The translations under genes and the position numbers were made by a program. A stretch of 64,000 nucleotides of DNA. Source: Spinellus fusiger (Eukaryota > Mucoromycota > Mucoromycetes > Mucorales > Phycomycetaceae). The stretch is from NCBI GenBank assembly GCA_025094145.1, contig JALLLS010000035.1, positions 62,001-126,000 of the forward strand, given 5' to 3'. Shown here piece after piece: positions 8,106 to 61,276 of this stretch (position 1 is the stretch's first letter; every line of letters starts with the position of its first letter). The notes below the pieces were generated by a model. The model was not told where the DNA came from and searched no databases. It saw nothing but the letters and a program-made list of their open reading frames with translations.

Positions 8106-8112
8106 TATTTAT

Positions 8113-9752: not shown

Positions 9753-10617
9753 CAGTTCAAAGTATTTTTTATTTGTGGGTGTTGATTGCTATTCGCGCAT
9801 TGGGCATGTTAGCCACCCTATGAGAACTTTTGAAAAAATAGAATAAACATTTAAACACTTCAAATACGAAAGTGAAAAAAGAATGCAAATGAATGGGAAA
9901 CAGAAGGACCGAGAAATACAAAACCTCAGATGAGGGAAAAATGATGAAAAATGAGAAATGATGGTAAAATGAGAATTATGAATAGACATCTAAAAAGGCC
10001 ATAAAGTCAGCAAGGAAAACAGGACACCAAAAAGATAACCGTCATCCTGTGGCAATTCGAAATCCAACGAGGGATACTTAGAGCAACTCGGACAATCCTG
10101 AGGACACAAATACAGAAACTACACTAGCAGCTTCTGGCTTTGCTAAACGGGTTAAGAATGGGTGGTAGAGAAGATATCGGAGGAGAAGTGAGGATACAGC
10201 GTCTGTTGCTGCAGGAGTCTTTGCGCTCTATGGCGGCGTTGGCGTTCCCGCTCAACACACCCATCAGCAGCCTCAATGAGCAGGCTACCAGCTGATGGCT
10301 CTACCTTAAAGTCTCGAGTAGACGTGGCTCGATCAATGGCTTGCAGCAGTATTAACAAACTGGGCCAAAGGTCTCGCCATTTAACAAAAGACTTAACCGT
10401 GCGCGGCAGAAGATTTAGACAATAGTCAATTGGATGAACATCTTGTGGTGGTGCAGGAACTAGGAAGAACAAGAACGTGGAGCGTTCATGGTCAACAAAT
10501 GTGCAAGTGAGAAAGTGGTCCCGATTGGCAGATGGGTGGCCACATTGGCAAGGAACTGAAGGTGTTGGTGGTAACCAAGCAATCCTCCATTTTAGTAGAC
10601 GATGTCTTTCTTTGCGC
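9753..10617 (-). mobile_element. 5'-truncated LINE copy nested in another LINE
   Basis: The 3' terminal part of the LINE on the minus strand, with a still open C-terminal ORF piece of about 160 codons (10152-10640, only about 10 codon differences from the intact element). It is bounded by a perfect 14-bp target-site duplication GGATAATGGTTATA (9739-9752 and 10618-10631), a hallmark of target-primed reverse transcription. The right-hand duplication runs directly into the Tc1-C element that begins at 10632. Confidence 0.9.
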
Positions 10618-10631
10618 GGATAATGGTTATA

Positions 10632-12000
10632 CAGTGTCACGACAAAAATCTAAAATATTTTTCATTTTCCGACTCTAATTTTGCTAAAAAAAAAAAAAAA
10701 ACTTTTTTTTTACACATTCCTCATTTCTTCTTTTTCCGCTATCATATTCATCATGTCTAACACCACCGAACAAACCACCAAGCCTTTTGGAAACAGAAAG
10801 AAAAATATCAACAACTTTACTTCTAAACTAATTGTACACGAGGCCACTCAACATGGCACCAGCCAAGTGGAGATTGCAGCCATGTTTGGCATCAGTAATT
10901 CCACTGTCAGCCTTATCGTGAAGAAGTACAGAGAAACTGGCTGTTTCAAAGCAGGGAAGAACTCTGGGCGCAAGTCTGTTCTGACTTAGAAGGACGAGAA
11001 AGAGTTTGTATACGAGATGGAAAGGGATTCATTTCAGACAATAGATCAACTTTGCAAGCAGATGACCACCAAAGTGTGCATGAGCACTTTTAGAGAAATG
11101 ATGAAGAATCTTGGCCTTTCTTCTTTCAGGATGGTTAAGAAACCTTCTCTCAGCATTAAACACAAGAAGTTGAGGCTTGCTTAGGCTAAGGCCCACTTCC
11201 ATTAGACTGAGGAAGACTGGAAGGCAGTCATCTGGTCCGATGAGTCCAAGTTCCAGCTAATGAGCAACAACCATCGCAACAGAGTAGTGCGCAGAAAGAA
11301 GGAGGGACTTCTCCCAAAGAATGTGAAGCCTACCATGAAGTTTGGTGGTGGTGGGGTGATGGTGTGGGGTTCCTTTTCTGGTGAAGGTGTTAGTAGACTT
11401 GCTGTGGTGGAGGGATCCATCAATAGTGCCAAATACACCAGTATTTTAAAGAAGACCTATTGCTTTGAGCTGGCTTGTCTTTTGGCACTGAATCCAGTGG
11501 TAGGCTATGTTCTTCAAGAGGACAATGCCAGTTGCCATACTAGTAAGGAGACTAGGAAATAGAAGGATGAGAGGGAGATTGCCACTATGGAGGGGTGGCC
11601 CTCTCAAAGCCCTGACCTGAACCCAATTGAGCATCTTTGGGAGGATCTCGACAGAGCAGTCAGAAAGAAGATGACCCCAAGGAGCACCCTCCAGGATCTG
11701 AAGGCTCTCCTGGTGCAAGAGTGGGAAAAAATACCCAAGACTGTCACCAACGCCCTCATCGACAGCATGCATTGGAGATGTATGGCTGTTATAGAGGCCA
11801 AGGGTGGAAACACCAAATACTAAGGGTTTTCACCTAATAAATCTGTATATATTATCTTGATGACCTTTTTTATACTTTATCCAATTTTCAAGTCTCTACT
11901 GTGTGTTTAATGTGTGTTTTTATGACAAAGAATGAGTATTTCCATAAACAAGAATCATATCGGAATGTAAAAAATATTTTAGATTTTTGTCGTGACACTG
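10632..12000 (+). mobile_element. Tc1-C element with good terminal repeats
   Basis: Terminal inverted repeats of at least 30 bp (CAGTGTCACGACAAAAATCT at the left, its complement at the right), flanked by TA on both sides (10630-10631, 12001-12002). Length is 1369 bp. It contains one transposase frame (10753-11823). It sits inside LINE copy 8113-9752/12001-12276, exactly at the end of the 14-bp duplication of the nested minus-strand LINE. Confidence 0.93.
10753..11823 (+). pseudogene. Tc1/mariner transposase, broken only by four TAG codons
   Basis: A single uninterrupted frame of 356 codons with a TAA end and no frameshift, containing four in-frame TAG codons (10987, 11182, 11203, 11557). The order is: N-terminal helix-turn-helix (VEIAAMFGISNSTVSLIV), a linker rich in Lys and Arg, then a DDE catalytic core. 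The core has WSDESKFQL (first Asp), QEDNASCH (second Asp), SPDLNPIEHLWE (third acidic residue) and a Tc1-type C-terminus ending GGNTKY. The related copy at 37990-39348 has Trp at two of the TAG positions. All stops being TAG is discussed as a finding. As it stands it would not give full-length protein under the standard code. Confidence 0.9.
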
Positions 12001-12276
12001 TATTTTTAGTGTCCTGTTTTCCTTGCTGACTTTATGGCCTTTTTGGATGTCTATTCATAATTCTCATTTTACTATTATTTCTCATTTTTCATCATTTTCT
12101 CCTCATATGAGGTTTTGTATTTATCTGTCTTCTTTTTTCCTCCCTCTTTGCATTTTCTTTTCACTTTTGTATTTAAAGTGTTTTTATTTATATCTTTTTT
12201 TTCAAAAGTTCTCATAGGGTGTCTAATATGCCCAATACGTAAATAGCACATTAAACCCAAAAATAAAATAAAAACA
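12001..12276 (+). mobile_element. LINE copy, second part (3' end)
   Basis: Resumes the LINE interrupted at 9752. The sequence from GTGTCCTGTTTTCC to CCCAAAAATAAAA matches the 3' untranslated end of the full-length element in inverse orientation to 32775-33060. The terminal CTTTGAACTG is eroded. A TATTTTAT after the end resembles TATTTAT before the 5' end (8106-8112), a likely imperfect target duplication. Confidence 0.8.
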
Positions 12277-12343
12277 TATTTTATATTCTTTAATAAATAA
12301 ATCAACCTAGCACATTGTGGATGAAATTTATTTAACATAAAGT

Positions 12344-14743: not shown

Positions 14744-15592
14744 CAAAGAAAATATTTCATTTTCTCGTAGCGATTGAAACTCAAGCAGGAATTCTCTCAG
14801 TGATCTTAAAAATCACTCGAACATAAACATATTAACCATAGTAACATCTTAAGGCTTTGCTAAATGAGATAATAGGAGGTAGTAGATTGAGGATCAAAAT
14901 AATGATAAAATTGATAGGATTTTGGTATCATATTATTAATAATCTACAGTAATGGTATCATTTATTAGTAACAGCCTCACCAGGGTCTTTAGTAAACAAG
15001 CTAACTGATAACGAATATTCCAAAGTCCTGAGTAGGTATGACTTAATCAATTAGTTCACACAAATACTATACTAAAAGATGTTTCATATAGTGCCTTCAG
15101 TTTTATTTATTAAGACATATTTTTCTTTTTTGTAATACATTTAGTATTTTCTTTTATGATTTGTGGACAAGCTACTCTTCTTTTTCTTCCATTCATTTAT
15201 TTTCTTTTTTCTTTTTTCTTCCGTCGGTACACCTTTTCTATTTCTTATGCTGATCCAAATTAGATATCAGCCTGATTATTAACACGCATTCATTGTCCTG
15301 GAAGAAATATAACGTACTAACTGAACAGATCATTTAATTACTATGTACTCAAACCATAGGCTTCTCATAATTATAATTGAAATCAAAGGTCTGCTAATTG
15401 TATCTAAAGTTAATACTCTTTCATTTGATTAAAGATCGATTTTTTAATATATCAAGTTAAAAAGTGAATAAATTGAAAATTAAATACTGCAGTTTATAAT
15501 TATAGTATACTTTCTATGCACACTCACACCATATGCGTCAAGAATTAAAATACAATTAATTTTCAAAAATTAATGTCATATTTGTTAAAATA
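14744..15592. other. AT-rich stretch, no gene seen
   Basis: No coding region of meaningful length and no recognised repeat between the Tc1-B element and the fold-back MITE. Confidence 0.4.
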
Positions 15593-15836
15593 AAGTGATC
15601 CGATAAAAGTAATAAAATATTTTCAAATGTAAATTTCCTTCTTTAGATTCATAATAGTATCATGAATTCATGACTTCATTAGATAGAAATATAAACATTC
15701 TGTTATTTATTATAAACACTCTTATCTTTATCTATTGAAGATTTATATTTCTATCTAATGAAGTCATGATACTATTATGAATCTAAAGAAGGAAATTTAC
15801 ATTTGAAAATATTTTATTACTTTTATCAGATCACTT
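15593..15836. repeat. Fold-back MITE derived from the Tc1-A 3' end
   Basis: A 244-bp near-perfect palindrome flanked by TA (15591-15592, 15837-15838). Each arm of about 100 bp starts AAGTGATC(C/T)GATAAAAGTA, the Tc1-A terminal repeat. It continues with Tc1-A 3' non-coding sequence, as at 7985-8105. The arms differ mainly by an 8-bp insertion in the left arm (GAATTCAT near 15664). The central spacer is about 45 bp and also Tc1-A derived. No coding capacity. Confidence 0.85.
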
Positions 15837-16168
15837 TAATAACACTCTAACTATAAGCTTGACTCTTCATTATTTCTAAGGAAGAGAATATTAAAATAGC
15901 AATACACTTTATACTTTACGAAAAAATGTATATTATCATAAGGAAAAAAAGTTTATTGAAAAAATAAATAGTGTTTTGTTTGTTTAATCCTATGAACACA
16001 ATGGTGTGTCTTTATACAATACTGTTTTGCTAATAAACAAAATATTAGCGTTTTCGTGTTAGTAAAAAGTACTGTTTTTAAATAAAACGTTTAATTTTTC
16101 TATAGATTCAGAATGGGTTCTACGTAGTGTTTATTCTTCTCTTTAATTCTTATAGCCTATTTTTAATA
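15837..16168. other. AT-rich spacer, no gene seen
   Basis: No coding or structural signal recognised. Confidence 0.4.
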
Positions 16169-16247
16169 CATTTCAAAGTATTTTATTTTTATTTCTGAGT
16201 GTAGGTGCTACTTGGCCCAATGCGCAATTAACCACCCTATGAGAATG
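16169..16247 (-). mobile_element. Very short LINE 3' stub
   Basis: About 79 bp matching only the extreme 3' end of the LINE (minus strand; CATTTCAAAGTATTTTA through CCACCCTATGAGAA). It is flanked by a perfect 7-bp duplication TTTAATA (16162-16168, 16248-16254) and is immediately followed by the end of a Tc1-C relic at 16255. This is a bona fide 5'-truncated insertion despite its size. Confidence 0.75.
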
Positions 16248-16254
16248 TTTAATA

Positions 16255-16830
16255 CGGCGAGTGAAAGAAAAGGATTCAAGTTTTAGATTTTTTGAATCTG
16301 TTTTTATTATTATTATATATAATATGCCTTTTTTCTTGTTTATTGTAAAGAAAAAAATCAACATATATTAGAGACTTCAAGCCTATATATAACATAGATA
16401 ATATCAGCATAATAATGGATATAGGTTTATTAGATAGCAAGCATTTGTACTTGGTACTGCCACTTTTTGCTTCAATGATAATTATGAATTTCCTAGGTAT
16501 GTTCTCAACAAGGCTGTTGATCATTTCAATTAGTATTCTCTGCCATTCAAGCAATATTAAAGCTTCCGAATCTCTAAAAGTACTTTGGAAACCCATCCTC
16601 TCTCGAACCTTACAGTCCCAAAATGTCCCATTGGTGCTCGATTAGGTTCAGATCTCGGCTTTGTGGGGGCTAGTCCTTCATCACAACTCTATTTACCTCC
16701 TTCTATTCCTTCTCTAATTTTCACCTGTGGCTACCAGAATTATCCTCTTAAAGAGAATAACTTATTTATGGGTTCATTTAAGAAAGATGGACCAGATCAA
16801 GTAGGTATTTCTCTTTCAAAATCTCAATTT
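16255..16830 (-). mobile_element. Degenerate, truncated Tc1-C element
   Basis: Minus-strand Tc1-C 3' half. The C-terminal IIEAKSGSTKYK lies at about 16440-16476, a decayed SRDLNLIEHQW block near 16630-16665, and a second-Asp block remnant near 16740-16760. The distance from the end at 16255 to the final KY codons (about 190 bp) matches the intact Tc1-C copies (about 183 bp), which fixes the terminus although the repeat itself is eroded (CGGCGAGTGAAAG). The 5' half is lost against the Tc1-A relic at 16832. Confidence 0.65.
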
Positions 16831-29463: not shown

Positions 29464-32199
29464 AAATAGAATAAGACCTGTGGAAGAAGAAACATCAATT
29501 TAGTCTTCAAAACAATAAACCATTACTAAGTCATCCGTAAAGATCGGTGTTCCTGAATTGGACAGTGTTCTTTTCTTTTTCTTTTTCTTTTTAAAATGTC
29601 ATCTACACACCAGGAGATTTTTCTGGCCTTTAAGCGGTGATATCTCCTTCCTTTTACGAGGGTCCCAATTTTTGCCTTTTATGGATATGTGTCTAAAAAC
29701 AAAGGTTTGAGAGTATCTAAAGAATTGTTTCCTTTTGTGGATACCTCAATATCAAATTGTATTATCAATGGAATATAGTGTTTATTGTCGTCTTTGGCTT
29801 TAACCAAAGGAAATCCGGACAGTTCAAAGAGTAAACAAAGTCTGATCTTTATTGATGGGTCTTTCACACTTCTTTTATACTTTTCTAATGACCGATATCT
29901 ACTAATAAAAGCTATGGAAAGCCCCTTCTTGCTAAAGTATCATCCCCTAGATATACGCCTTGCTAACTAACTCATCTTCTACCATATGGTCCCGTTTAGG
30001 CAGTTTGTGTTTCTATTGACTGGGATGATCTATGGTTCTATTTATGGAAAGTGATTATCCGACATGATGGATGAAATTGTTTATTGTAATAATATAGCTA
30101 CTGTTCTAGGCGTATTCCTTCATAGCAATAGAATCCACAACCTAAAGGCCTTATACTTTGTTCTTGGGAGATAGATAAATATGCTCATGAGTATACCCTA
30201 GACAGCCTAGACACCTTAGACAGTATAGAAAGAAGAAGACCACCTGAGACTGACTTGAGAAAGAGTCTTTACTTGCCTAATAACAATACAATGAGTGTCT
30301 TGTGGATTAAATTGAGCTCAAGCCCAGATGAAGACACTGCTTACCTTTTTATCACTAGAATAGTCCTTGGTAGTGTCTATCACCTCTCTCTATTGTTTCT
30401 CTTTGTTAATAATAGCACATTACCTTGTTTATTTATGCTCATCTTGACGAGTACTTGAGTGTTAAATTGTATGGACAGTGTAAGAAATAACAAAAGGAGG
30501 GGAATATCAAAACAAATAATAACTTCTCTTTCTCTATTCTGGTCATGCATACACTAGCCTCCACTCATAAAATCCACAAGTCAAATTTACAAGTCAAACA
30601 ATTCACACTCTATTTGCCTTGAGCCTAAAGGACAGTATTAGAAACAATGCTTTGTTATCATTGAGCACCACTGTTAATACCAGTTACAACGAGATAATTG
30701 AGGTGATTATAGGTAGTGAGTCAATAAATGAATATACTGTTCTCAATGTAAGTTTGGTTCTATTTTATGGACAATGACCACTAGAGTTAATTCAGTGTGT
30801 CCTATAATACATCTTTCTTAAGCAGTGATATACTGCAAATACTGTGGGCTTATGGATAACAAACTATGTTAAGAGAAGAATATCAGTGACTGATTTGCAA
30901 TGTCAGGTTTACTCCTTCCTTTTATCCAACTTTATAGTGTTTAATTGCACAGTCCATAGTCAATGCTAAAACAGACAGACAGTGAAAAGGTTCTTTTCAA
31001 ACACATTAGTCAACCAAAGAAATAACATAATTTTATTGTTCATATATTTCCCTTTATATCCCAAAAATATTCTGTTGCTATGAGACAAGAGACACACAGG
31101 ACCTCGTAAGGCTGGTTACTCATACGGAGATTGACAGAAAAGAGAAGGGTATGGGCTGACAGAAGGCAAACTAATGGTTGTAATAATAATAGTACCCTAT
31201 GTGAATACAGAAAGAAAACAAGTCGAGAACAAGAAACAGCCAGTTGCTCAAGTCCTTAAAGCCTATCTTGTTTATACTCTAGGAAGCTGTTTGGATCAAA
31301 GTCTATTTTATTAAAGATATAGACAACTAAACTTTTATATTAGTTTGCTATTTATTTTTCATTCTACTATGAATTTGTCTAATTTGCTATTCTCAAGCAA
31401 TGTCTATAGTTTTCATAGAACATTCAAGCAGATTGGGAAGGGTAACTGTCCTGTCCTATAGTATATATAATCTTGGTCCTGTATTTCAAGGCCATAGAAT
31501 TCCATAAAGTGATTTTGTTGTAAAAGAAAAGAAAAAGGGTTTCTCTGTTCCCGTGAAACATACATAAGACAAGAGGAGGGAATCCATCTATGAATTTACT
31601 GAAATGTTATTATAGTATAACTTTGATTCTTATAGCTTAAAGAGATATATAAAAAATTAGCCTCAAAATCCATCTATGTAACCTTGTAAAAATATATCCT
31701 TTATTCTGTAAAAAAGGGCACTGTGGTTATCAACAGGACCACTAGAGAGATGAATCTGTAGTAGTTCGGTCTCTAGCGGGGACAAAGAAATAGAGTATTA
31801 GTACAATGGCTAGTCTAGGGAAATCAAAGAGGGTATATGAACAGGAACACAACACACGACCTGAATATAACGGGTAACTAGGCAACTTCTTTAAGCAATT
31901 CTTTTCTTTTTAAATGTTGTTGTAGTCTACATTACTTTAGTAGTTCTGATTAAGCAAATGACTTGTGAAAATTCGTCTTGTTATCTTCTGCTCGAATATT
32001 AATACCTGCTAATTACACTGTCTGTTGTTCTTCATAACTTCTACCCTCTTTAACTTGTTTGCCTTTGTCTGGCATATAAACCAACAGTTGTGATCTGGTA
32101 AGTGTTTGTGTATGTTTATTATGTCTGACATGTTGGTCAGTTTCTATTTTATATTCTTTTATTTTAATAAACCCAGTGAATCCGTTGCAAAGGCAAAGG

Positions 32200-32772
32200 C
32201 AGGAAGAAGGTGCCAATGCAAGAGTAATACGAAACACCTAGATTACGTTGATACATCTCGAAGTAACTATTTTTACTATTATTTTATTATTAAAAGGGGG
32301 TATTGGCACCTAAAAGGATTGGAGTATGATTTTACCAAACTACCAGTCGTTGCTTATGGCACAGGAATAAAGAGAAAAGATGCTGTCAAGTTTAAAGGCC
32401 ATTGTGTTGGTTTGACGAGAGTTTTATATCAATCATTGAAAAAGAGACAAAAGAGTGATCTTCTTATGGTTGATGTTGATAAGTTTGGAACATCAAGGGT
32501 GAACATGATTGACTTCTCAACCAATATGAAAGGCTCTTCTAACAGTTACTCTTATTTTTGTTCTCAAGATCTGCCACACTTATAACACAAATATCCTCAC
32601 TAAGGTATTCATAAATTTCAACAGTATCCACGCTTGCTAAGTTTATGGAATTGTTTGGGACAGAGATGCGGATGCATCAAAGAATATCTATACAATCACA
32701 GAAGAGGCATTAAATGTTCGCCACCGACTAGCTTCATTCTGTCGAGAAGAATATAGATTTGTATTCATATAC
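32200..32772 (+). pseudogene. Fanzor (eukaryotic TnpB-like) C-terminal remnant, copy A
   Basis: Readable segments in shifting frames: VVAYGTGIKRKDAVKFKG, then LTRVLYQSLKKRQKS, the position of the VxEFxTS motif written as VDKFGTSRVN (its Glu changed to Lys), a zinc-finger region without cysteines, and finally WDRDADASKNIYTI (32656-32698). That last segment is the RuvC-III motif with its Asp. The family is RNA-guided nucleases related to bacterial TnpB. Loss of the zinc-finger cysteines and stops near 32583 show decay. It is cut from its 3' flank by the LINE at 32775. Confidence 0.65.
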
Positions 32773-33176
32773 TACAGTTCAAAGTATTTTTATTTATGGG
32801 TGTTGATTGCTATTCGCGCATCGGGCATTTTAGCCACCCTATGAGATCGTTTGAAAAAAAAAAGAATAAACATTGAAACACTTCAAATACATAAGTGAAA
32901 AAAATAATGCAAAGAGAGAAGAGACGGAAAGAAAAGAGAATATAAAACCTCAATGAGGGAAAAATGATGGAAAATGAGTGGAAATGATGGTAAAATGAGA
33001 ATTATGAATAGACATCCAAAAGGCCATAAAGTCAGCAAAGAAACCAGGACACCAAAAAGATAACCGTCATCCTGTGGCGATTCGAAATCCAACGAGGGAT
33101 ACTTAGAGCAACTCGGACAATCCTGAGGACACAAATACAGCAACTACACTAGCAGCTTCTGGCTTTGCTAAACGGG

Positions 33177-36100
33177 TTAAGAATGGGTGGTAGAGGAGAG
33201 ATCGGAGGAGAAGTGAGGATACAGCGTCTGTTGCTGCAGGAGTCTTTGCACTCTATGGCGGCGTTGGCGTTCCCGCTCAACACACCCATCAGCAGCCTCA
33301 ATGAGCAAGCTACCAGCTGATGGCTCTACCTTAAAGTCTCGAGTAGATGTGGCTCGATCAATGGCTTGCAGCAGTATTAACAAACTGGGCCAAAGGTCTC
33401 GCCATTTAACAAAAGACTTAACCGTGCGCGGCAGAAGATTTAGACAATAGTCAATTGGATGAATGTCTTGTGGTGGTGCAGGAACTAGGAAGAACAAGAA
33501 CGTGGAGCGTTCATGGTCAACGAATGTGCAAGTGAAAAAGTGGTCCCGATTGGCAGATGGGTGGCCACATTGGCAAGGAACTGAAGGTGTTGGTGGTAAC
33601 CAAGCAATCCTCCATTTTAGTAGACGATGTCTTTCTTTGCGCGTGCACGGTAGTAGAAGAATTGGATCCCAAACAGGTCTACATAGTCCACGGGCTACCG
33701 TCACCAGCGGATTCTTGCCACGTACTAGACTAGTAATTTCACTTTGAAGACGTTCAAGATAAGCTACTTTTAATGGATATTTAGGAGGGTTGTGAGCCCG
33801 TCCTATTCTTTGAGCATTTTGCCAGAGTACATTGCCACGTAGCTTAATACATCTGGCTTTACTCTGGGGTGCTTCAAGCTGCGGGACAAGGCACCAGAGG
33901 AGGGTGTCTTCAGGAAGGGTAGCTGCGCGCTCAACAAATTTGGCTTGCAGATAAAGAAAACGAGAGTATATGTTAGGGAGGGCAGCTAATTTGGCAACCT
34001 GGATCGTTCCAAACCTAGCAGTAGCAGATCTAGCAAGACAAAGTCTCAGACAAGCAGACTGACAGATTTGTAGCGGGCGGATGCCTAGTCTATTGACATT
34101 ACAAATAGCCAACCCACACTCAAGGATAGGCCGAACAAAAACAGTATACGCTCTTAGGGCTGCTGTAATCCCAAAGCCATACATGTTTACACCCATTCCT
34201 CTCAGCTTTTGCATTACTGCAATTGCCTTGACTTGTGAGTGTGAGAAAAGTACGTCTTGGTTAATACCTTGACGTGAAAAAGGGATACCAAGGTACTTGA
34301 AAGTATCACAGGTTGGAAGCTCGTTGCCATAGAGGTAAAACGGCACATTGGCCGGGGCATTGAGTACTTCACATTTGGAGGGACTCCATTTGTAACCAAG
34401 GAGGGTCGAGTGAATTTCGGCAAGTGCCAGCATTCGATGTATATCTTCTGGGCAGCCCATAAGAGCCACATCATCAGCATACAACAAACAATTCACAGGA
34501 GCCCAAGTAACAGTGACATGAGACGGACTGTAAGAGGAATCTGACGACTCAGAAGAGTCATCCGAAACTGTAGAAGTAGGAAAAGGATTGTGAAGGGAAT
34601 TCTGTAACTCGTCAAGCAATGCGTGAACAGTTGCCTGTGGGGAAGCAAAAGAGAAAGGATTTCGAGCACAGAGATGAATGGACTGTCCCATGGTAGGTGG
34701 GTACATACCAACCAGTATTGGGGATACCGAAGCAAACCTCAAGAAACGTGGAAGAGTATCAATGAAAATAGAATAAAGGAATGGAGAAAGAATACTACCC
34801 TGTAAGACTCCTCGTTTAGGTGCAATGTCCCGGGATGCTACATTTTTCAGAATCACATTCACCACAATGTCATCAAACAAATTCTGTAGTAGCAAGAGCA
34901 ACGGCTGAGACACGAAGGGCATCAGCGACTCCCATATGACAGAGCGTTCCACACTATCATATGCAGCTTTAATATCTCGGAAGACGACGACTGGAGGTTT
35001 TGGATCTTGCTCTCCTGATCCTTGGGCAGCGTACAACCCCATAAGTTCGTGGAGACAGAGGGCCTGGTCTAGAGTTCCACGACGAGCGCGAAATCCACCT
35101 TGAGCCATGTCCAATGCAGGCATGGTCGAGAGGAGCTCCCCAGCTATACATCTTTCTAAGAGCTTACGAAACACCGATGTCAAGCTAATAGGCCGATAGT
35201 TACTAGGGTCATCCTGCTCTCCTTTGTTTTTGTAAATAGGTACCACCTGTGCTGTTCTCCAGGCCACAGGCGTCCACGACCATCTCCAACACAATGTGAA
35301 GATCTGATGTAACAGAGGCACTAGCACTCGAACTAGGGGTTTGAGCATTTCTGCTCTAATATGATCAATGCCTGGTGCTTTTCGATTTGGCATCTTTCGA
35401 ATAGCAGAGTGAATAAAGTCTACGTCCCATGGGACTGGATTGTCTTGGAGAGTAAACTCCTGACGCTCCTGTCTTTCCGTAGATCCGCCAAACACACTCT
35501 CTAGGTGGTCAATCATGCGATTGGCAGCATGCCGAGGGCCCTCTGGAGATGACAGGGAAATTGGCGAACGTCTCCGCAGCCTCATTCCTTTCACAGCACT
35601 TGTCATCTCTGTTAAGCCCTTACGGACTTTATCACAAAATACATGCCAGGTTTGTCGTTGTGCTTGCCTTATAGCCTTTTTCAAAGCTAAACACGCTTCC
35701 TCATACAAGCGGTGGGCTTCAATGCGTTCAATATCATTGCCTACCCGTCGTCTAAAACGATAAAGTTCTTGACGACGGTCAGCTAACTGTTGTAGATCAG
35801 CATTCCAGTAGCTTTTCCAAGCTTTTGGATGGGATTGTGCGCGCCCTACGCTATCATCCAGGGCCTTGTAGATTGACTCATTGAGTCTCTCAGCAAAGTC
35901 CTCCATCTTAACAGAGCACAACGGGGTTTTGTCTTCCAATATTTTTTGGATCTCTCTTTGCAGTTCACCTGTGTTCTCTACAAAACATCGCTTGTACTGG
36001 TCACAGACTGTTTGTTTGTTTAAACGTTGCAGTCTCCAGAGGCGACGGACAGCTGTTTCTGTCATGAGCGGTGGCATGAGCACCGGCTGAAAGGACAGCT

Positions 36101-36770
36101 CACACAAGTGGTGGTCTGAACCTAACGTCAGATCGTCCCTAATGTGCAAGCACACTTCGGAGAAGTTGTAGCTTCTTGACAGGAACAGGTCAATAATGCT
36201 AGCAAACCGACGACCATCTGCTAGAATTCGCTCATATGTAGGCAAGCCAAATGCCAACTCTGAGTTCCACAAGGTTAGATCCTGACGGCAGATCCAGTCT
36301 TCAAATCCCACATGTCTGTCGTTTATGCCATGATCTCCAGTCAGGCGGCCTAAACGTGTATTCAGGTCACCAAGGACGAGTGTGAAGTCGTCTATGGGTA
36401 GTGAATTCAACCTTTCCGCAGCCTCACTAGACGACAGCCTCGGAGGTAGGTACAGACCATGGAATGTATATGGGCCAATCCTACAGGAGACCACAAAAGG
36501 ATTAGTAATTGGTAAGGAATGTACATGGTAAGGAAAGTCAGGACGAATAAAGAACGAAACTCCATCAAAACCTCGTCCAGCATCACCATGGGCTGTAGCA
36601 TAGTTGTGTATTTGTATCCAGGGGCACCTCAACATTTGCATGTCTTTGGTCAGGAAAGTCTCTGTCACTAAAAGTATATCAATATCATTCTGCACACACA
36701 CATTCAGAACGTTCACCAGTTTGGGCCTGATTCCACAAGCATTCAATAGACCAATCTTCAGTCTATTCAT
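33177..36770 (-). CDS. LINE ORF2: APE endonuclease-reverse transcriptase
   Basis: 1197 residues without interruption. Residues 1-230 are an apurinic-type endonuclease (GLLNACGIRPK, VTETFL, LGDLNTRLG, SIIDLFLS, GSDHHLCEL). Residues of about 440-830 are the reverse transcriptase (NRKAPGIDHI, YRPISLTSVFRKLLE, FRDIKAAYDSVE, GVLQGSILSPFLYS, active site YADD near residue 763). A C-terminal Cys/His cluster (CQCGH...HFFTC, about residues 1064-1078) is typical of L1/Tx1-like elements. The ATG overlaps the ORF1 stop (ATGA), so translation probably couples by re-initiation. The endonuclease is the likely determinant of the Tc1-end/TA target preference described in the findings. Five partial copies lie elsewhere in the window. 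Confidence 0.95.
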   Translation of the reverse strand: MNRLKIGLLNACGIRPKLVNVLNVCVQNDIDILLVTETFLTKDMQMLRCPWIQIHNYATAHGDAGRGFDGVSFFIRPDFPYHVHSLPITNPFVVSCRIGPYTFHGLYLPPRLSSSEAAERLNSLPIDDFTLVLGDLNTRLGRLTGDHGINDRHVGFEDWICRQDLTLWNSELAFGLPTYERILADGRRFASIIDLFLSRSYNFSEVCLHIRDDLTLGSDHHLCELSFQPVLMPPLMTETAVRRLWRLQRLNKQTVCDQYKRCFVENTGELQREIQKILEDKTPLCSVKMEDFAERLNESIYKALDDSVGRAQSHPKAWKSYWNADLQQLADRRQELYRFRRRVGNDIERIEAHRLYEEACLALKKAIRQAQRQTWHVFCDKVRKGLTEMTSAVKGMRLRRRSPISLSSPEGPRHAANRMIDHLESVFGGSTERQERQEFTLQDNPVPWDVDFIHSAIRKMPNRKAPGIDHIRAEMLKPLVRVLVPLLHQIFTLCWRWSWTPVAWRTAQVVPIYKNKGEQDDPSNYRPISLTSVFRKLLERCIAGELLSTMPALDMAQGGFRARRGTLDQALCLHELMGLYAAQGSGEQDPKPPVVVFRDIKAAYDSVERSVIWESLMPFVSQPLLLLLQNLFDDIVVNVILKNVASRDIAPKRGVLQGSILSPFLYSIFIDTLPRFLRFASVSPILVGMYPPTMGQSIHLCARNPFSFASPQATVHALLDELQNSLHNPFPTSTVSDDSSESSDSSYSPSHVTVTWAPVNCLLYADDVALMGCPEDIHRMLALAEIHSTLLGYKWSPSKCEVLNAPANVPFYLYGNELPTCDTFKYLGIPFSRQGINQDVLFSHSQVKAIAVMQKLRGMGVNMYGFGITAALRAYTVFVRPILECGLAICNVNRLGIRPLQICQSACLRLCLARSATARFGTIQVAKLAALPNIYSRFLYLQAKFVERAATLPEDTLLWCLVPQLEAPQSKARCIKLRGNVLWQNAQRIGRAHNPPKYPLKVAYLERLQSEITSLVRGKNPLVTVARGLCRPVWDPILLLPCTRKERHRLLKWRIAWLPPTPSVPCQCGHPSANRDHFFTCTFVDHERSTFLFFLVPAPPQDIHPIDYCLNLLPRTVKSFVKWRDLWPSLLILLQAIDRATSTRDFKVEPSAGSLLIEAADGCVERERQRRHRVQRLLQQQTLYPHFSSDLSSTTHS

Positions 36771-37720
36771 AATTCTTCTCGGTGGATGTTTTGGGCGTCT
36801 CCCTCATCTTCTTCCATAGCTGAGCCTGATCCAAATGCCTGGATGGCCTCTTCTTCAAGGGTGGCGGGGCGGCTGGCAACTGGGGTCTTGGCCTTGAGAT
36901 CCGCCAAGAGCTTCTCAAAGGCAGTGGCAGAGAGGCGGGGAGTGGCATTACCAGAGCCAAAGTGGCGAGCAATGCTGTACCCTAAGTGGGTGGGGGAACG
37001 AAGACAGGTGTTTGATACTCTCTGGTCAAAGAGTTCCTGGGCCTTTGCAGCCTTGGTACTGTTGGTTTCCCCTTGGAGCTTTGGGTCTGCAATGACTGCA
37101 GTGGACACAGGGTTGAAGTCCTTCACTGGACTGATCTTAAGCTTCTCGAGGTGCTCCTCGAGTTCTTTCTTGTAGCTGCTGTGGACCAGCAGCGCAACTG
37201 TTCCCCTTGCCGGGAAGTGGATGTCAATGATCCGTGACTGTTGGATCTTCAACGATCCCAACATCTTGCGGACCTGGCCGTACTTGAGGTATCGGCGGCA
37301 AGGGACGTATACGAATTCGTACACTGAGGGTCCAGTGGGCTCCTGCAAGGCACGTACTGCTTGTGCCTTAAGCACTGCTTTGGCCTTTGTAGGCTTCTTG
37401 GCCTGGGGGTTCTTCTTTGCCATGCTGGCGTAGGTGGTGGGTGTGGGTGTGGGTGTGGAGGTTGGGGCATGCTTTGAAGCAGCAGTCGGGTTGTCCTGCT
37501 TGGCAGGGGTGGCAGGGGTGGCAGTGGTGGTGGTGTTGGTGGTGTTGGTGGTGCTGGTAGTGGCCTGAGCCTGGAGGGATGCAATCATTGCATCCTTGGC
37601 CTTCAATTGGGCCTCCAATTCCTGGATACGGAGTCCAAAGATCTCCATCTGTTTTTGGATTGCCGCCATCATCTGCAGCATTTGTTGGGCGTGGGTGTCG
37701 GCCTTTTCCACCTCGGACAT
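36767..37720 (-). CDS. LINE ORF1: coiled-coil nucleic-acid-binding protein
   Basis: 317 residues from the first ATG (37720). Residues 1-52 are a coiled coil (QMEIFGLRIQELEAQLKAKD). Residues of about 53-105 are Thr/Pro-rich and low complexity, followed by a basic Lys/Ala stretch. A conserved domain of about residues 125-230 (VYEFVYVPCRRYLKYGQVRK...IDIHFPARGTVALLVHSSYK) looks like an RRM-type fold. The C-terminus is acidic. ORF1 products coat LINE RNA. The frame stays open for more than 80 codons upstream of this ATG without another ATG, almost to the 5' end of the element, so the natural start may lie further 5' and this copy could be slightly truncated. The C-terminal third recurs in the deleted copy at 62279-62840. 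Confidence 0.85.
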   Translation of the reverse strand: MSEVEKADTHAQQMLQMMAAIQKQMEIFGLRIQELEAQLKAKDAMIASLQAQATTSTTNTTNTTTTATPATPAKQDNPTAASKHAPTSTPTPTPTTYASMAKKNPQAKKPTKAKAVLKAQAVRALQEPTGPSVYEFVYVPCRRYLKYGQVRKMLGSLKIQQSRIIDIHFPARGTVALLVHSSYKKELEEHLEKLKISPVKDFNPVSTAVIADPKLQGETNSTKAAKAQELFDQRVSNTCLRSPTHLGYSIARHFGSGNATPRLSATAFEKLLADLKAKTPVASRPATLEEEAIQAFGSGSAMEEDEGDAQNIHREEL

Positions 37721-37989
37721 TTTGTTCTCCTCGTTGGTTCTTGCTCGGGTGCGTTTGGCAAGCAATTTTTCTTTTCTGCTTTTAGGGACGTCGTAGGTGG
37801 TGGGGACGTCGGTAAGGCCAAACTCGAAGGGTTTGGCGGGTGGTGCTGAGGTGGGGTCCGTGGTTAATGGATCCAGTGTGATATAGGTGGCGGGGGGTGT
37901 TGGTGTTGACGGATGGGTGATTGTAATGTTTGCTGTAGATTTTATTATAACTCTTTGGGGTAATATTTATTACGCGAATTCATATACTA

Positions 37990-39348
37990 CAGTGGCTCGT
38001 GGAAAACATACGTAGATTTCAAATTCAGACCCTAATTTCTTCCTTAAATTTTTTTTTTATTAAACATTCCTCATTTATTGCTTTTCCACCATAATGTCTA
38101 CCTCATCTAACACCATCAACCAACCCATGAGACCTCGTGGAAACAAGAAGAAAAATATTGATGACTTCACTCGATGCCTCATTGCTCACGAGGCCACCGT
38201 AAATGGGACCAGGCAGGTTGCCATTGCTGCTAGGTTTGGAGTCAGTGCGCAGTCGGTTTCCTTTATCGTAAAAAGATATAAGGAAACTGGCTGCTTCAAG
38301 GCCAAGAAGAGCACTGGGCGCAAGCCCATTCTGACAGAGAGGGACGAGAGAGAAGTTGCCCGCGAAGTGGCAAGAGATTCATTCCAGACAATGAATCAGC
38401 TTCGCAGCCAGATGACCACCAAAGTGTCCATGACCACTTTCTCAAAGACGATAAAGAAGATTGGCCTGCTTTCTTCCAGGGTGGTCAAGAAACCTTCTCA
38501 GCATCAAGCACAAGAAGCTGAAGCTTGATTAGGCTAAGGCCCACCTCCACTGGACCGAGGACGACTGGAAGACGGTCATCTGGTCCGATGAGTCCAGATA
38601 CCAGTTGGTCACCACCAACAACCGTACCAGAGTAGTACGAAAAGTGAATGAAGGACTGCTCCCGAAGAACGTCAAGTCCACTGTGAATTTTGGAGGTGGC
38701 AGCGTAATGGTGTGGGGATCTTTCTCTGGTGAAGGTGTTGGGAGATTGGTGCCTGTGAAGGGCAGTATTGATAGTGCAAGATACATTGAGATCTTGAAGA
38801 AGTAATACTGCCCTGAGCTGGCCCGACTCAAGGCACTGAATCCAGAGGTGGATTATGTTCTTCAAGAGGACAACGCCACCTGCCACAAGAGCAAAGAGTC
38901 CAGGTTGTGGAAGGCAAAAGAGACCATTGCCACCATGGAGGGGTGGCCTTCCCAGAGCCCTGATCTCAACCCCATAGAGCATCTTTGGGAGGTGCTTGAC
39001 AGGGCTATCCGCCAGAGGATGACCCCAAGAAGCACTCTCCAGGATTTGGAGGTGCTTCTGTTGGAAGAATGGGAGAAAATCCCCAAGGACACCACAGACG
39101 CCCTCATTTCCAGCATGCATCGGAGATGTAGGGCCGTCATTGAGGCCAATGGTGGAAACACCAAATATTAATGGTTTCTACCCAATAAAATTATTTTTAT
39201 TATTCTATTGACCTTCTTTATACTTCATCCGATTTTGAAGTCTCTACTGTGTGTTTAATGTGTGTTTTTATGACAAAGAATGAGTATTTCCTATTACAGA
39301 AGTATATTGGAAAATGAAAAATCTACGTAAGATTTCCACGAGTCACTG
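37990..39348 (+). mobile_element. Tc1-C element inserted next to the full-length LINE
   Basis: Terminal repeats CAGTGGCTCGTGGAAA (left) and TTTCCACGAGTCACTG (right) with one mismatch, flanked by TA (37988-37989, 39349-39350). 1359 bp. The left TA is the last two bases of the 12-bp LINE duplication. Copy B of the surrounding Fanzor element (60300-60330) shows the site without this insertion. Confidence 0.92.
38094..39171 (+). pseudogene. Tc1/mariner transposase, frameshifted
   Basis: Starts MSTSSNTINQ at 38094. The helix-turn-helix (VAIAARFGVSAQSVSFIVKR) and linker are intact to about 38490, where a 2-bp deletion shifts the frame, followed by a TAG at 38529. The catalytic core is readable in another frame: WSDESRYQL, a TAA near 38803, QEDNATCHKS, SPDLNPIEHLWE, ending GGNTKY. 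The TAG at 38529 occupies the same codon as the TAG at 11182 in the copy at 10632. Confidence 0.9.
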
Positions 39349-39782
39349 TATATCGCCACATAGAAGGTGGTTTCCTTCGGGATTCAGATTTTTACAGGTA
39401 AATATACTGTTTTTATTTGTTTAAAAACTAACATGAATACATCTGAATTTATTTTTGCTCCTTCTCAAATCGATGTGTTATTTTTAAACCATTGTATTTC
39501 GACTATTTCCTTTTATATCCTAAAGATCTCTTGGTGTGTAAGAATAGATGGCTGAGTTGATATTGTCTAATTTCACAATGATAGACATTTATAAATAACA
39601 TTTTCGAGGGAGAAAGATAAAAATAAAAATAAAATATTAAAAATACTAATATATAATATATACATATAATATATAAAACAAAACAGCAACAGAGGCATCC
39701 TAGAAATCATCATAAATAGAGTGTTATTCTTATCACTACAAAAGAACCTTGCGACTCTGACTAAGACTACTCTGAGATTGCT

Positions 39783-41282
39783 TTATTTACGGGTGCGCTG
39801 GGTGAGAAAAGACCACCACGACTGCTTTGGTGTGCGTCCATAATCATCCATATCATCCGGGTCTGGGGTATTTGCAGAAAAGTAGTTGGCTTGGTTATTT
39901 AAAAATGTATCTGTCTGATGATGGTGAGGCCATTCTTCTGATGCAGTATATGGATCAGCATAAAAATCTTCATCATTCATCTGGCTTTGTTCTTTATGCA
40001 TGGCATGTCTCTTTTGGCGTCTACGGTATAGAACAGCCGCTGATACAATAAGAGTCAAGCCAGCAATAGCCCCCACAGCACTACCAGCAATAACACTAGG
40101 AGAGGTACTAGTGACCTCACTATCAATAGAGGCACTACCAGCAGCAAGAGAGGGGATAAGGGTGCTATAGATGAAATATATGAGCAAGAATGGCAATGAT
40201 TTGGAAATAGTAACTTACACTCTTGGAACAAATGTAGTAACAGCCACTGTCACACCATCAATGACTATCTCGGTTACTGTTTGTACGTTGATAGTGGACG
40301 TCAGCCATACTTGATGGGAGCTTTGAGGATTAAATGAAATAGAAGTGGGTGTAAATGTGCTAGAGGATATACGTACGGGGGTGGGTGTAGGAGTGGGTGT
40401 AGGAATAGGAATAGGTGCAAAAGTAGATGTGGTTGTGGTTGTGGTTGTAGTTGCGGATGTAGGATCTAATGAGGTAGCTTTAACTGTAGTGCTAGTATCT
40501 GCTATTGTTGATGTAACCTGTATTGCTGAGGTGGTTTCTACTGCTGAAGTGATTCCTGTTGCTGTTGATGTAGTTTCTGCTGTTGCTGTCACTGAAGTAG
40601 TAGTCTCTGCTGCAGTTGTGGTGGTTGCTAAGCTAGTTGTGGTGGTTGCTAATGTATTGGAAGTAGTAGTCTCTGCTGCAGTTGTGGTGGTTGCTAATGT
40701 ATTGGAAGTAGTAGTCTCTGCTGCAGTTGTGGTGGTTGCTAATGTATCGGAAATAGTAGTCTCTGGTGTAGTTGTGGTGGTTGCTAATGCATTGGAAGTA
40801 GTAGTCTCTGCTGCAGTTGTGGTAGTTGCTGTTGATATACTGGTAATAGAATCTGCTTTACTTGACGTGGATGATAATGTTACACTAGAACTAGACTTTT
40901 CAGTGCTTGTTGGTATGGTAACTGAAGAGAAGGTATCACTTGATTTGGTTTTTGATATGATAGAAGTCGTCTCTTTTAATATTGTGCCTACTGCACTGGT
41001 CGCTATTGTATGGTGCTCAGGGGAGGAGGTTAGACTTGGTGCCAGTGTAGTTTTGGCTGGTACTTCAGTAGAAATATTATCCTCAGTAAATGTTGGAGTC
41101 AGTACTTTTGGAGAGGCTGAGGAGCTATGTCCAAGCTCCTTTATCGTTTCTTCTGTAGTGATGGTCGCGCTATTTGTTTCATTAACCACTATTTCTCTGT
41201 CAACTTCCACTTCAATAGTTTCATGTTGAGGAGCAGGCTCGCTTGGTGATATAGGATGCGCTGGAAGTTGAGTAGAAGACAT
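39783..41282 (-). CDS. Mucin-like Ser/Thr-rich single-pass membrane protein
   Basis: Two exons (40219-41282 and 39783-40164, 54-nt GT-AG intron) give 481 residues. Residues 1-90 are acidic/Ser-rich. Residues of about 90-320 are an extreme Ser/Thr domain with a 15-residue tandem repeat (TTTTAAETTTSNTLA), expected to be heavily O-glycosylated. It is followed by a Pro/Thr linker, a short conserved-looking segment (STINVQTVTEIVIDGVTVAV), one transmembrane helix (SVIAGSAVGAIAGLTLIVSAAVL), a basic stop-transfer RRRQKR and a roughly 75-residue cytoplasmic tail. This resembles fungal cell-wall stress sensors (Mid2/Wsc type). No signal peptide is seen at this ATG, so an upstream exon may be missing or it inserts by its transmembrane helix. 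The open antisense frame at 40345-41229 is a by-product of the repeat. Confidence 0.8.
40597..40835. repeat. 45-bp coding tandem repeat
   Basis: About four to five imperfect direct units of 45 bp (15 codons) within the Ser/Thr-rich domain of the mucin-like gene. One unit is partly duplicated near 40620-40645. Confidence 0.85.
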
Positions 41283-57428: not shown

Positions 57429-60400
57429 CACACCCAAAGATTTTTTGGCCTTTAAGCGGTGATACAATTTTCCTTTTACATGGTTGAAATAACGCACCTT
57501 ATATGGAACAATGATTAAAATCAAAGGGTTTATGGATGTCCAACTTGTTATTTTCTTTTATAGGATACCTCAATATCAAATTGTATTATCAGTAAAATAT
57601 ATTGTTTATGAATAAAATTGTTTATTGTAATAGTATAGATAATAATATATTATGACTATAGCTACTTCCTAAGTAGATTCCTTCATAGCAATAGAATCTA
57701 CACCCTAAAAGCTTTGTGCTTTATCCTTGGGAGATAGATAACTATGCTCAGTAGTATACCCTATAGACCCTAGACAGTATAGAAGACCACCTGAGACTGA
57801 CTTGAAAGGAGCCTTTACTTGCCTAATAACAATACATTGAGTGTCTTGTGGAATACATTGAGCTCAAGCCCAGATGAAGACACTGCTTACCTTTTTATCA
57901 CTAGAATAGTCCTTGGTAGTGTCTATCACCTTCTATTGTTTCTCTTTGTTAATAATAGTACATTACCTTGCTTAATTATGCTCATCTTGACGAGTACTTG
58001 AGTGTTAAATTGTATGGACAGTGTAAGAAATAACAAAAGGAGGGGAATATCAAAACAAATAATAACTTCTCTTTCTCTATTCTGGTCATGTATACACTAG
58101 CCTCCACTCATAAAATCCACAAGTCAAATTTACAAGTCAAACAATTCACACTCTATTTGCCTTGAACCTAAAGGACAGTATTAGAAACAATGCTTTGTTA
58201 TCATTGAACACCACTGTTAATACCAGTTACAACGAGATAATTGAGGTGATTATAGATAGTGAGTCAATAAATGAATATACTGTTCTCAATGTAAGTTTGG
58301 TTCTATTTTATGGACAATGACCACTAGAGTTAATTCAGTGTGTCCTATAATACATCTTTCTTAAGCAGTGATATACTGCAAATACTGTGGGCTTATGGAT
58401 AACAAACTATGTTAAGAGAAGAATATCAGTGACTGATTTGCAATGTCAGGTTTACTCCTTCCTTTTATCCAACTTTATAGTGTTTAATTGCACAATCCAT
58501 AGTCAATGCTAAAACAGACAGACAGTGAAAAGGTTCTTTTCAAACACATTAGTCAACCAAAGAAATAACATAATTTTATTGTTCATATATTTCCCTTTAT
58601 ATCCCAAAAATATTCTGTTGCTATGAGACAAGAGACACACAGGACCTCGTAAGGCTGGTTACTCATACGGAGATTGACAGAAAAGAGAAGGGTATGGGCT
58701 GACAGAAGGCAAACTAATGGTTGTAATAATAATAGTACCCTATGTGAATACAGAAAGAAAACAAGTCGAGAACAAGAAACAGCCAGTTGCTCAAGTCCTT
58801 AAAGCCTATCTTGTTTATACTCTAGGAAGCTGTTTGGATCAAAGTCTATTTTATTAAAGATATAGACAACTAAACTTTTATATTAGTTTGCTATTTATTT
58901 TTCATTCTACTATGAATTTGTCTAATTTGCTATTCTCGAGCAATGTCTATAGTTTTCATAGAACATTCAAGCAGATTGGGAAGGGTAACTGTCCTGTCCT
59001 ATAGTATATATAATCTTGGTCCTGTATTTCAAGGCCATAGAATTCCATAAAGTGATTTTGTTGTAAAAGAAAAGAAAAAGGGTTTCTCTGTTCCCTTGAA
59101 ACATACATAAGACAAGAGGAGGGAATCCATCTATGAATTTACTGAAATGTTATTATAGTATAACTTTGATCCTTATAGCTTGAAATACGTATATGAGTGG
59201 ACCCAAATTCATACTATGTAACCTTGTAAAAAAATATCCTTTATTCTGTAAAAAAGGGCACTGTGGTTATCAACAGGACCACTAGAGAGATGGATCTGTA
59301 GTAGTTTGGTCTCTAGCAGGGACAAAGAAATAGAGTATTAGTACAAAAGCTAGTCTAGGGAAATCAAAAAGGGTACATGAACAGGAACACAACACACGAT
59401 TTGAGCACAACGGGTAACTAGGCAACTGTTCTTTAAGCAATTCTTTTCTTTCTAAAATGTTGTTGTAGTCTGCATTACTTTGGTAGTTCTGATTAAGCAA
59501 ATGACTTGTGAAATTTCGTCTTGTTCTCTTCTGTTCGAATATTAATACCTGCTAATTACACTGTCTGTTGTTATTCATAACTTCTACCCTCTTTAACTTG
59601 TTTGCCTTTGTCTGGCATATAAACCAACAGTTGTGATCTGGTAAGTATTTGTGTATGTTTATTATGTCTGACATGTTGGTCAGTTTCTATTGTATATTCT
59701 TTTACTATAATAAACCCAGTGAATCCGTTGCAAAGGCAAAGGCAAGAAAAAGGTGCTAATGCAAGAGTAATACGACACACCTAGATTACGTTGATAAATC
59801 TCGAAGTAAATATTTTTACTATTATTTTATTAGTGAGAAGGGGTTTTGGCGCCCAAAAAGATTGGAGTACGATCCTACCAAACTGCTAATTGTTGCCTAT
59901 GGCACAGGAATAAAAGTAAAAGATGCTCTCAAGTTTAAAGATCATTGTGTTGGTTTGACGAGAGTTTTATATCAATCATTGAAAAAGAGACAAAAGAGTG
60001 GAGGTATTCTTCTAGTTGATGTCAATGAGTTCTGAACATCGAGGGTGAACATGGTTGACCTCTCAACCAATATGAAAGGCTCTTCTAACAGTTTTCTTTT
60101 TTCTTTTTTGTTCTCAAGACCTGCCACACTTATATTACAAATAACTTCACCGAGGTATTAGTAAATTTCAACAGTATCCATGCTTGCTAAGTTTATGGAA
60201 TTGTTTGGGACAGAGATGTGAATGCATCAAAGAATATCTATACAATCACAGAAGAGGGATTAAATGTTCGCCTCCAAATAGCTCTATTCTGTTGAGAAGA
60301 ATAAATATTCATATTATATCATATCGCGACATCAAAAGTGGTTTCCTCCGGGATTCAGATTTTTACAGGTAAATATACTGTTTTTATTGTTTAAAAACTA

Positions 60401-60505
60401 ACATGAATACATCTTAATTTATTTTTGCTCCTCAAATCGATTTGTCATTTTTAAACAATTATATTTCGACAATTTTTTTTAATATCCTAAAGATCTTTAG
60501 GTGTG
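57429..60505 (+). mobile_element. Fanzor-bearing TIR element, copy B (uninterrupted)
   Basis: 3077 bp bounded by inverted repeats CACACCCAAAGATTTTTTGG (left) and CACACCTAAAGATCTTTAGG (right, inverse strand), each next to TA (57427-57428, 60506-60507). It is highly similar to copy A over most of its length, so both derive from one mobile element or a recent duplication. It carries a decayed Fanzor C-terminal region 200-700 bp from its right end. Between 57500 and 59750 no transposase or other gene was recognised. The frames at 57819-58001 and 30255-30458 are shared only because the copies are so similar. Confidence 0.8.
59780..60300 (+). pseudogene. Fanzor C-terminal remnant, copy B
   Basis: Readable pieces: LIVAYGTGIKVKDALKFKDH, LTRVLYQSLKKRQKS, VNEF followed by a stop then TSRVN (the Fanzor Glu preserved), and WDRDVNASKNIYTI (60206-60250) with the RuvC-III Asp. 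Two features differ from copy A: the Glu is intact here, and an extra TGA is present. Zinc-finger cysteines are missing in both. Confidence 0.65.
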
Positions 60506-61276
60506 TAGGAATAAAGTATTCCTAATCTATTTCAAGCAAGTAGGCAAATAACTCTTTCTTCTTGGATCAAACGAATATATATTTATATAAAGTAATATAC
60601 ATTGAAACTATTGTTCTTTTATCATGTTTTTTACACTATATGGTTTAATATCTAAAGAATAAATAACAGCTTTTATTATTATTATTAAAAAGATTCAATT
60701 GTTACTTATTTTATAAACTGTATAAAAATATTGCTTTATGAATCAAATGAGTTTGAGCAGTGCACCAAATAAGGTCCAAATCTTGTTCAAATTTAATTGG
60801 ACAGAAAAGCCAGAAAAATCTTTAAGTGTATATGTTTGAAATAGCGCTTGTTAAAATAAGTAAGTTTAGAGTGGTTATAAAATTGTCGTAGGCTCATGCA
60901 CACACTGAGTATGACGAAAAGAATTAAGGTACAACTAGCACAGTTGGTGATCCATCAATGCCTGTGTTCTCTACTGAAAATATCCTTTTGAATTGTAAAT
61001 ACACTTTATGAATGTCAGAATTAACAATATTCCTATTTAATTTTTTATATAATACACTCTTGCAGTATAGAAATACCAATACAACTACTCAATTTCTCAA
61101 CATTAATGAAAATAAAGTTTAGCTGTGTTGTAACAAGTAATCTACTCCTAAATATACTTTTTTATTTCTACTGCTATAAATCACTCTTAATATGTAGTAG
61201 AGATAGGAAATGGATGTTGTATTATTAACGAATAGCGATCTATAGCTATATCTCCCAGTTATATTCTATATTCTAT
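60506..61276. other. AT-rich spacer, no gene seen
   Basis: No coding or structural signal recognised between the Fanzor element and the next gene. Confidence 0.4.

Follow-up and report, generated by a model that had tools for sequence, protein, structure and literature searches.

Why should a retrotransposon lie exactly against the outer end of a DNA transposon? The question is raised by a 64,000-nucleotide stretch of the Spinellus fusiger genome (contig JALLLS010000035.1, positions 62,001 to 126,000; hereafter the window), in which a full-length long interspersed nuclear element (LINE), named F1, abuts the Tc1/mariner element Tc1-C (Table 1). A first-pass annotation had proposed that this LINE inserts at the outer end of such transposons. 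Its reading of the full-length copy was borne out: one 12-bp duplication flanks F1 on both sides, and the CAGT of Tc1-C begins directly behind the second copy of it. The termini of F1 were read as ...ATACTTTGAACTG (3' end, at 32775) and TCGCGTAATAAATATTACCCC (5' end, at 37977). The 3' terminus is fixed, ...TTTGAACTG, and carries no poly(A), unlike that of mammalian L1.

The junctions of this LINE were counted in 38.08 Mb of genome sequence. The tail pattern TACTTTGAACTG occurred 537 times, compared with 12 for the reversed pattern, and TA followed it directly in 498 cases (93%). TACAGT followed the tail (CTTTGAACTGTACAGT) twice in the whole genome, which places Tc1 on the 5' side of the LINE, as had been claimed. 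The full-length 5' motif GTAATNAATATTACCCC, counted by exact matches only, was found 85 times, with 41 of F1 type, 43 of the type of a shorter relative, F2, and one other, the assignment to F1 or F2 resting on one base of the motif. ACTGTA stood 4-34 bp upstream in 69 of these 85 (F1 36/41, F2 33/43, the other 0/1). The control hexamer of the same letters, TAGTCA, stood there in 2/85, both overlapping or abutting an ACTGTA junction.

To identify the upstream flanks, 60 of the 69 with ACTGTA were aligned to ends flanking transposase similarity, and the best score of 1200 shuffled flanks was taken as the threshold. The reference library was drawn from loci around LINEs and includes two of the tested ends (L080 in L052 and L097 in L031), each with transposase similarity. 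Fifty-two flanks were Tc1 ends, 6 were LINE tails and 2 were neither (L106, L110). Alignment score placed 46 of the 52, and the other 6 were placed by eye (L065, L091, L093, L094, L099, L107); five of these six have one family's end in common, and the sixth is an end interrupted by another element. Outside the 60, the flank of the window copy is a Tc1 end and an F2 at C164:105893 lies behind a LINE tail. Both counts, 69/85 and 52/60, bear out the genome-wide enrichment of Tc1 termini that had been put forward as the test of the proposal. The elements concerned have the properties of Tc1/mariner transposons: helix-turn-helix families and a DDE_3 transposase, inverted CAGT ends, TA on both sides and a length of ~1.3 kb. 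Their paired ends lie 1322-1373 bp apart, most enclosing transposase similarity. The two Tc1 families at first named as the target gave way to many, since the 52 ends sort into 24 groups with CAGT, G or A at +5 and an A-rich stretch from +13 to +17 in common.

The window contains 56 TACAGT sites, including 6 Tc1 ends and 4 LINE tails. Compared with this base rate of 6/52, 52 of the 54 non-LINE flanks are Tc1 ends (binomial, 2e-46), which by simple arithmetic, ignoring selection against genic insertions, is a ~200-fold preference per site for Tc1 ends over other TACAGT sites. Selection against insertions in genes could explain a part of this preference, not 200-fold. F1 is a target-specific LINE, as most of its copies stand at the same position of a repeated sequence.

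In the sampled loci, 62 distinct tails were distinguished after identical contexts had been merged; the 5' end was readable in 43 and lay outside the sampled DNA in 19. Twenty-nine of the 43 adjoin Tc1, 7 a LINE tail and 7 neither. Loci L009-L038, being those most similar to the window copy, form a non-random sample; in the subset L039-L063 plus the window, 16/22 adjoin Tc1, 1 a LINE tail and 5 neither. The automatic tail pattern missed L031 and L036, whose tails are mutated and which alignments place beside Tc1, while L046 and L050, with one common junction, were counted as Tc1 under a looser rule. Tc1 adjoins 21/27 copies that are at least 95% like the reference and 8/16 more diverged ones. 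Two LINE copies on one contig, L046/L047 and L050, agree in their Tc1/LINE 5' junction and in the sequence upstream of it and differ in their 3' flanks, as if by recombination or joint mobilisation. L003 has the related tail ataacacTTTGAACTG, followed by TCTCTTACATA instead of TA, and is perhaps of another LINE subfamily.

Duplications of 11-14 bp were well resolved in 25 copies (18 adjoining Tc1, 6 a LINE tail and 1, L017, neither), and TA came first in all 25, in agreement with the earlier description. The F1 copies adjoining Tc1 vary widely in the LINE position at which they begin. These differing 5' truncation points indicate, as had been argued before, that Tc1 is not homing to a LINE sequence. 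By inspection, the transposase reads toward the LINE in L012, L013, L026 and L031 and away from it in L015, L016, L032, L040, L052, L060, L061 and both window cases; since the orientations differ, both Tc1 ends serve as target. Tandem arrays were found in L001, L016 and L032 and, judged by distance and a common duplication, in L038+L120 and L066+L067. One duplication recurs between the successive elements of an array, with the Tc1 end at the outermost 5' position, and repeated use of one Tc1 end would look the same here as insertion at a LINE tail.

Which element came first was read from two kinds of locus. Among 9 distinct Tc1 elements examined with paired ends, two have a LINE-type insertion at each end; the insertions point away from the transposon and differ in their duplications (Table 1). 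As a single landing of Tc1 hits a single TA, at least one LINE is later than Tc1 at each of them. The window also holds a paralogue of the insertion locus that lacks both Tc1-C and the LINE, and its 93% identity runs across the joined flanks. These doubly occupied elements and the empty paralogue argue for the order Tc1 first, and where both ends are occupied the sequence itself speaks for Tc1 before LINE. The broken transposase of Tc1-C, in which no single frame is open throughout, against the open frames of the LINE fits this order and is no proof of it.

The larger frame of F1, ORF2, matched two Pfam domains, an N-terminal apurinic/apyrimidinic (AP) endonuclease (PF03372, 3.5e-06) followed by a reverse transcriptase (PF00078, 2.5e-19). 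A profile of ORF2 and 27 relatives matched human L1 ORF2p at 3e-47, covering endonuclease and reverse transcriptase, and scored less well against R2 proteins (7e-30, the best among R2-like reverse transcriptases). By domains and profile scores, F1 is a LINE, or non-LTR (non-long-terminal-repeat) retrotransposon, of the AP endonuclease (APE) type and the L1 group. Named relatives of ORF2 were found in Circinella, Umbelopsis, Rhizopus, Phycomyces and further fungi of this kind, in keeping with a host among the Mucoromycotina, and a search for relatives in viral contigs gave none. The Pfam search with ORF1 gave no family at 0.001, and up to E 10 just weak matches under all curated cut-offs.

F2 is ~1.5 kb long and has no ORF2; it was seen in the window (62280-62840), L054, L052 and L062. 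Compared with F1, its start is 74% identical (~80 bp), an ORF1-like stretch 79% (725 bp) and the last 240 bp 82%. The full-length 5' motifs of F2 are about as many as those of F1, and the Tc1-end target is common to both. F2 probably depends on F1. HAL1-type elements are ORF2-less relatives of LINEs, and F2 resembles them, as it lacks ORF2 and retains an ORF1-like region together with a 3' end of LINE type. It differs from them in having the Tc1-end target in common with F1, in its length of 1.5 kb and in an ORF1 that is interrupted in the copy read.

Insertions were also found away from Tc1. L017 is a young copy (99%) off target between CATTG and TATTGTTATTAGGC in a unit of a 2.9-kb repeat, and its unfilled paralogous site was located by eye at window ~30275-30300. 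The window has two units of this repeat, 93% identical (30093-39547 and 57657-60513); the first received the composite of Tc1-C and LINE, and L017 entered a unit elsewhere. The tail of L017 still reads GAACTG despite the non-Tc1 site, which indicates that the tail, at least that C, is at least partly LINE-encoded. At L017 and at the F2 site of the window, TA^CA (the caret marks the nick) is kept on the primed strand and the duplications are TA-first. A LINE endonuclease with a TA^CA-like core, able to act without Tc1, is suggested. L044, on the minus strand, is a poorer fit, as it lies between GTAG and TG and its duplication has one differing base.

We propose target-primed reverse transcription as the route by which F1 and F2 insert at the borders of existing Tc1/mariner elements, a reading to which we give a probability of about 0.8. 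The nicked strand would run from the flank through TA into the CAGT of the Tc1 end, with the nick at or a few bases from TA^CAGT. The 3'-OH of the flank would prime cDNA on the RNA end ...GAACUG, so that the cDNA would begin CAGTTCAAAG, and a second-strand cut 11-14 bp into the flank would yield the TA-first duplication. The LINE would end up immediately beyond the border of Tc1, its 5' end facing the transposon, and Tc1 and its TAs would stay intact. The nick may come from the LINE's own endonuclease with its presumed TA^CA core, and the preference over other TACAGT sites from further features of Tc1 ends (the A-run at ~+13 to +17) or from bound proteins. Because CAGT is common to tail and target, identical letters would result if the nick fell as much as four bases inside Tc1 and the RNA end then annealed. 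Site, orientation, duplications and the many-family target can be read off the DNA. The first-pass annotation had let a nick exactly between TA and the transposon end explain all cases. This reading is supported, in that such a nick would fit the counts, the orientation, the duplications, the varied truncation points, the doubly occupied Tc1 elements and the empty paralogue. Some insertions are off target (L017, the window copy at 62280), and 6/60 flanks stand behind another LINE tail.

Other histories could produce similar neighbourhoods. Repeats cluster in such genomes, and L046 and L050 have one junction in common, as they would if an old composite had been multiplied; however, truncation points, duplications and Tc1 families differ between copies, and the genome-wide junction and flank counts already tell against both ideas. 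Chance neighbourhood is scarcely credible, and a single composite is counted as rejected. A Tc1 element landing in the TA of a LINE duplication would leave the same letters at a one-LINE locus, and Tc1 does target TA. Yet both copies of the duplication contain TA, while TACAGT follows the tail in 2/537 and most 5' copies adjoin Tc1. Many duplications contain more than one TA, yet Tc1 stands at the outermost, and one landing in one TA does not account for the two elements with insertions at both ends and differing duplications. This reverse order is very improbable and was rejected. It is also improbable, and was likewise rejected, that the LINE needs nothing beyond ACTGTA, or microhomology with its own tail, and that Tc1 ends merely carry these letters. 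ACTGTA is usually present, LINE tails with ACTGTA also precede LINEs in tandem arrays, and the CAGT of the tail matches that of Tc1. The flank counts speak against this, since 46 of the 52 TACAGT sites of the window other than LINE tails are not Tc1, yet nearly all non-LINE flanks are. Insertion into a break left by Tc1 excision was discarded, because Tc1 is still present and the 11-14-bp flank duplication lies in between.

The remaining alternatives concern the source of the specificity. A Tc1 transposase bound to the end, or nicking it, might supply the nick or tether the LINE particle. The used ends differ widely in sequence, and the nick made by Tc1/mariner transposases falls a few bases within the 5' end; with a CAGT tail, primers ending in TA, TACA or TACAG would all yield the same junction. 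The ~200-fold preference for Tc1 ends also speaks for such help. On the other hand, L017 and the window copy at 62280 keep TA^CA and TA-first duplications at non-Tc1 sites, and Tc1-C was hit despite its broken transposase (action in trans would be possible). Transposase assistance is unlikely on this evidence. That the LINE parasitises the Tc1 transpososome, a transposase of any family at the end giving it a priming 3'-OH or a docking site while the 1.5-kb partner rides along, is a doubtful proposition. Several observations weigh against the proposed insertion of F1 and F2 at Tc1 borders. ACTGTA is missing upstream of 16/85 full-length 5' motifs; among three such flanks examined by eye, L124 and L125 resemble Tc1 ends with altered first bases and L126 is not Tc1-like. 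Under the automatic rule, 7/43 copies have neither Tc1 nor a LINE tail as neighbour; one of the seven is a window copy that borders a Tc1 relic. Past CAGT, the purine at +5 and the A-run, the 24 groups of ends have little in common, so that no long sequence for direct recognition stands out, and the shared features are those of Tc1 ends generally. Extended recognition of the Tc1 end by the LINE is favoured over transposase help as the putative source of the preference.

The six LINE copies of the window are listed in Table 1. The first-pass annotation had put five of them at Tc1; of these, two are certain and three, though decayed, are plausible. The sixth, the F2 copy, is not at Tc1. Besides the full-length copy, the 5'-truncated copy was confirmed with its 14-bp duplication and the Tc1 end directly behind it. 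The copy at 4393-5277 does adjoin a relic with transposase similarity (5478-6502), while its duplication is degraded (TACATATA / TACATCTA); the automatic table scores it as neither because the terminal CAGT of the relic is mutated. The stub at 16169-16247 likewise has a neighbour with transposase similarity (16447-16807), and its 7-bp duplication is weak. The older copy from 8114 stands beside Tc1-A (transposase similarity at 7002-7928), and its duplication is weak because its tail is decayed.

Table 1. Coordinates of the LINE copies, Tc1 elements and duplications (window positions unless a contig is named)
Feature	Position	Strand	Remarks
Full-length LINE F1	32775-37977	minus	5203 bp; both ends read
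Target-site duplication, LINE 3' side	32763-32774	+	ATTCATATACTA, 12 bp
Target-site duplication, LINE 5' side	37978-37989	+	ATTCATATACTA; last bases are the TA of Tc1-C
Tc1-C	37990-39348	+	CAGT...ACTG, TA at either side; transposase frame broken
ORF2	33177-36770	minus	1197 aa, open; AP-type endonuclease and reverse transcriptase (Pfam and profile)
ORF1	36767-37765	minus	332 aa counted from first TTG, open
Uninterrupted paralogue of 30093-32774 + 39350-39547	57657-60513	+	93%; empty site for Tc1-C and LINE
5'-truncated LINE copy	9753-10617	minus	LINE positions 4335-5203
14-bp duplication, LINE 3' side	9739-9752	+	GGATAATGGTTATA
14-bp duplication, LINE 5' side	10618-10631	+	GGATAATGGTTATA; closes with the TA of Tc1-B
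Tc1-B	10632-12000	+	inside older LINE copy
Older LINE copy, left part	8114-9738	+	adjoins degraded Tc1-A end; resumes at 12003
Older LINE copy, right part	12003 to ~12275	+	beyond Tc1-B; decayed tail, end approximate
Older LINE copy at Tc1 relic	4393-5277	minus	relic from 5286
LINE 3' stub next to Tc1 relic	16169-16247	minus	tail TACATTTCAAAG; weak case
Truncated F2 copy	62280-62840	+	off target between GCTTG and TA; no Tc1
Duplications of F2 copy	62268-62279 and 62841-62852		TACTAAGGTGGT / TACTAATGTGGT
Tc1 with both ends occupied (L031, L097)	C116:167338-168659		duplications left TATATACACCATGAG..., right TATATTAAACAAAT
Tc1 with both ends occupied (L052, L053)	C46:570909-572264		duplications left TACTCTATTAAA, right TATACATTGGG

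In the region 6868-12290 of the window the insertions are nested: an older LINE borders an end of Tc1-A, Tc1-B sits within that LINE, and a younger LINE in turn borders an end of Tc1-B. Ends beginning with CAGTC mark a Tc1-like family at window positions 13375 and 45611 and in L045 and L051. None of the 52 Tc1 ends used by full-length elements starts with CAGTC (0/52), so that base +5 or the family may matter. The window further contains direct repeats with a spacing of mostly 45 nt (40523-40880) and an inverted repeat (15591-15838) with arms of 81 nt, 98% complementary, and 86 nt between them.

A LINE that uses a DNA transposon as target has a known counterpart in Tx1L, which inserts in Tx1D of Xenopus. 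F1 is like the target-specific APE LINEs of the Tx1 and R1 clades in combining an AP endonuclease with a reverse transcriptase and a fixed position in a multicopy sequence. It is unlike them in that its target is a terminus common to many Tc1/mariner families and that it lies just outside the transposon, which stays whole. The available parts of two reports give as known LINE targets ribosomal RNA, transfer RNA and small nuclear RNA genes, spliced-leader exons, microsatellites, telomeric repeats and other transposons (PMC4640811, PMC8869645). Grem-LINE1 and other L1-like LINEs of Mucoromycotina have, like F1, an ORF1 and an ORF2 with AP endonuclease and reverse transcriptase; the accessible text on Grem-LINE1, set beside F1 by description only, reports a pericentric position and control by RNA interference and describes no Tc1 target (PMC7377519). 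For SART1Bm, the 3' end of the RNA is proposed to anneal to the target strand for an accurate start of reverse transcription, as may happen in F1; SART1Bm has a poly(A) tail and a telomeric target, whereas F1 has a fixed CAGT end without poly(A) (PMC7265360). The matches listed by full-text searches, with most subscription journals out of scope, included no description of a LINE inserting at Tc1 ends. The use of Tc1 ends by a LINE is real and, as far as these searches reach, new among target-specific LINEs.

The border of a Tc1 element is a safe and self-renewing landing pad, which spreads with the transposon and survives the insertion. The system makes it testable how an AP endonuclease acquires a target made up of many families, and whether a retrotransposon exploits the protein of another element. 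If the transpososome is indeed what the LINE uses, a protein of an unrelated DNA-transposon superfamily would guide a retrotransposon genome-wide.

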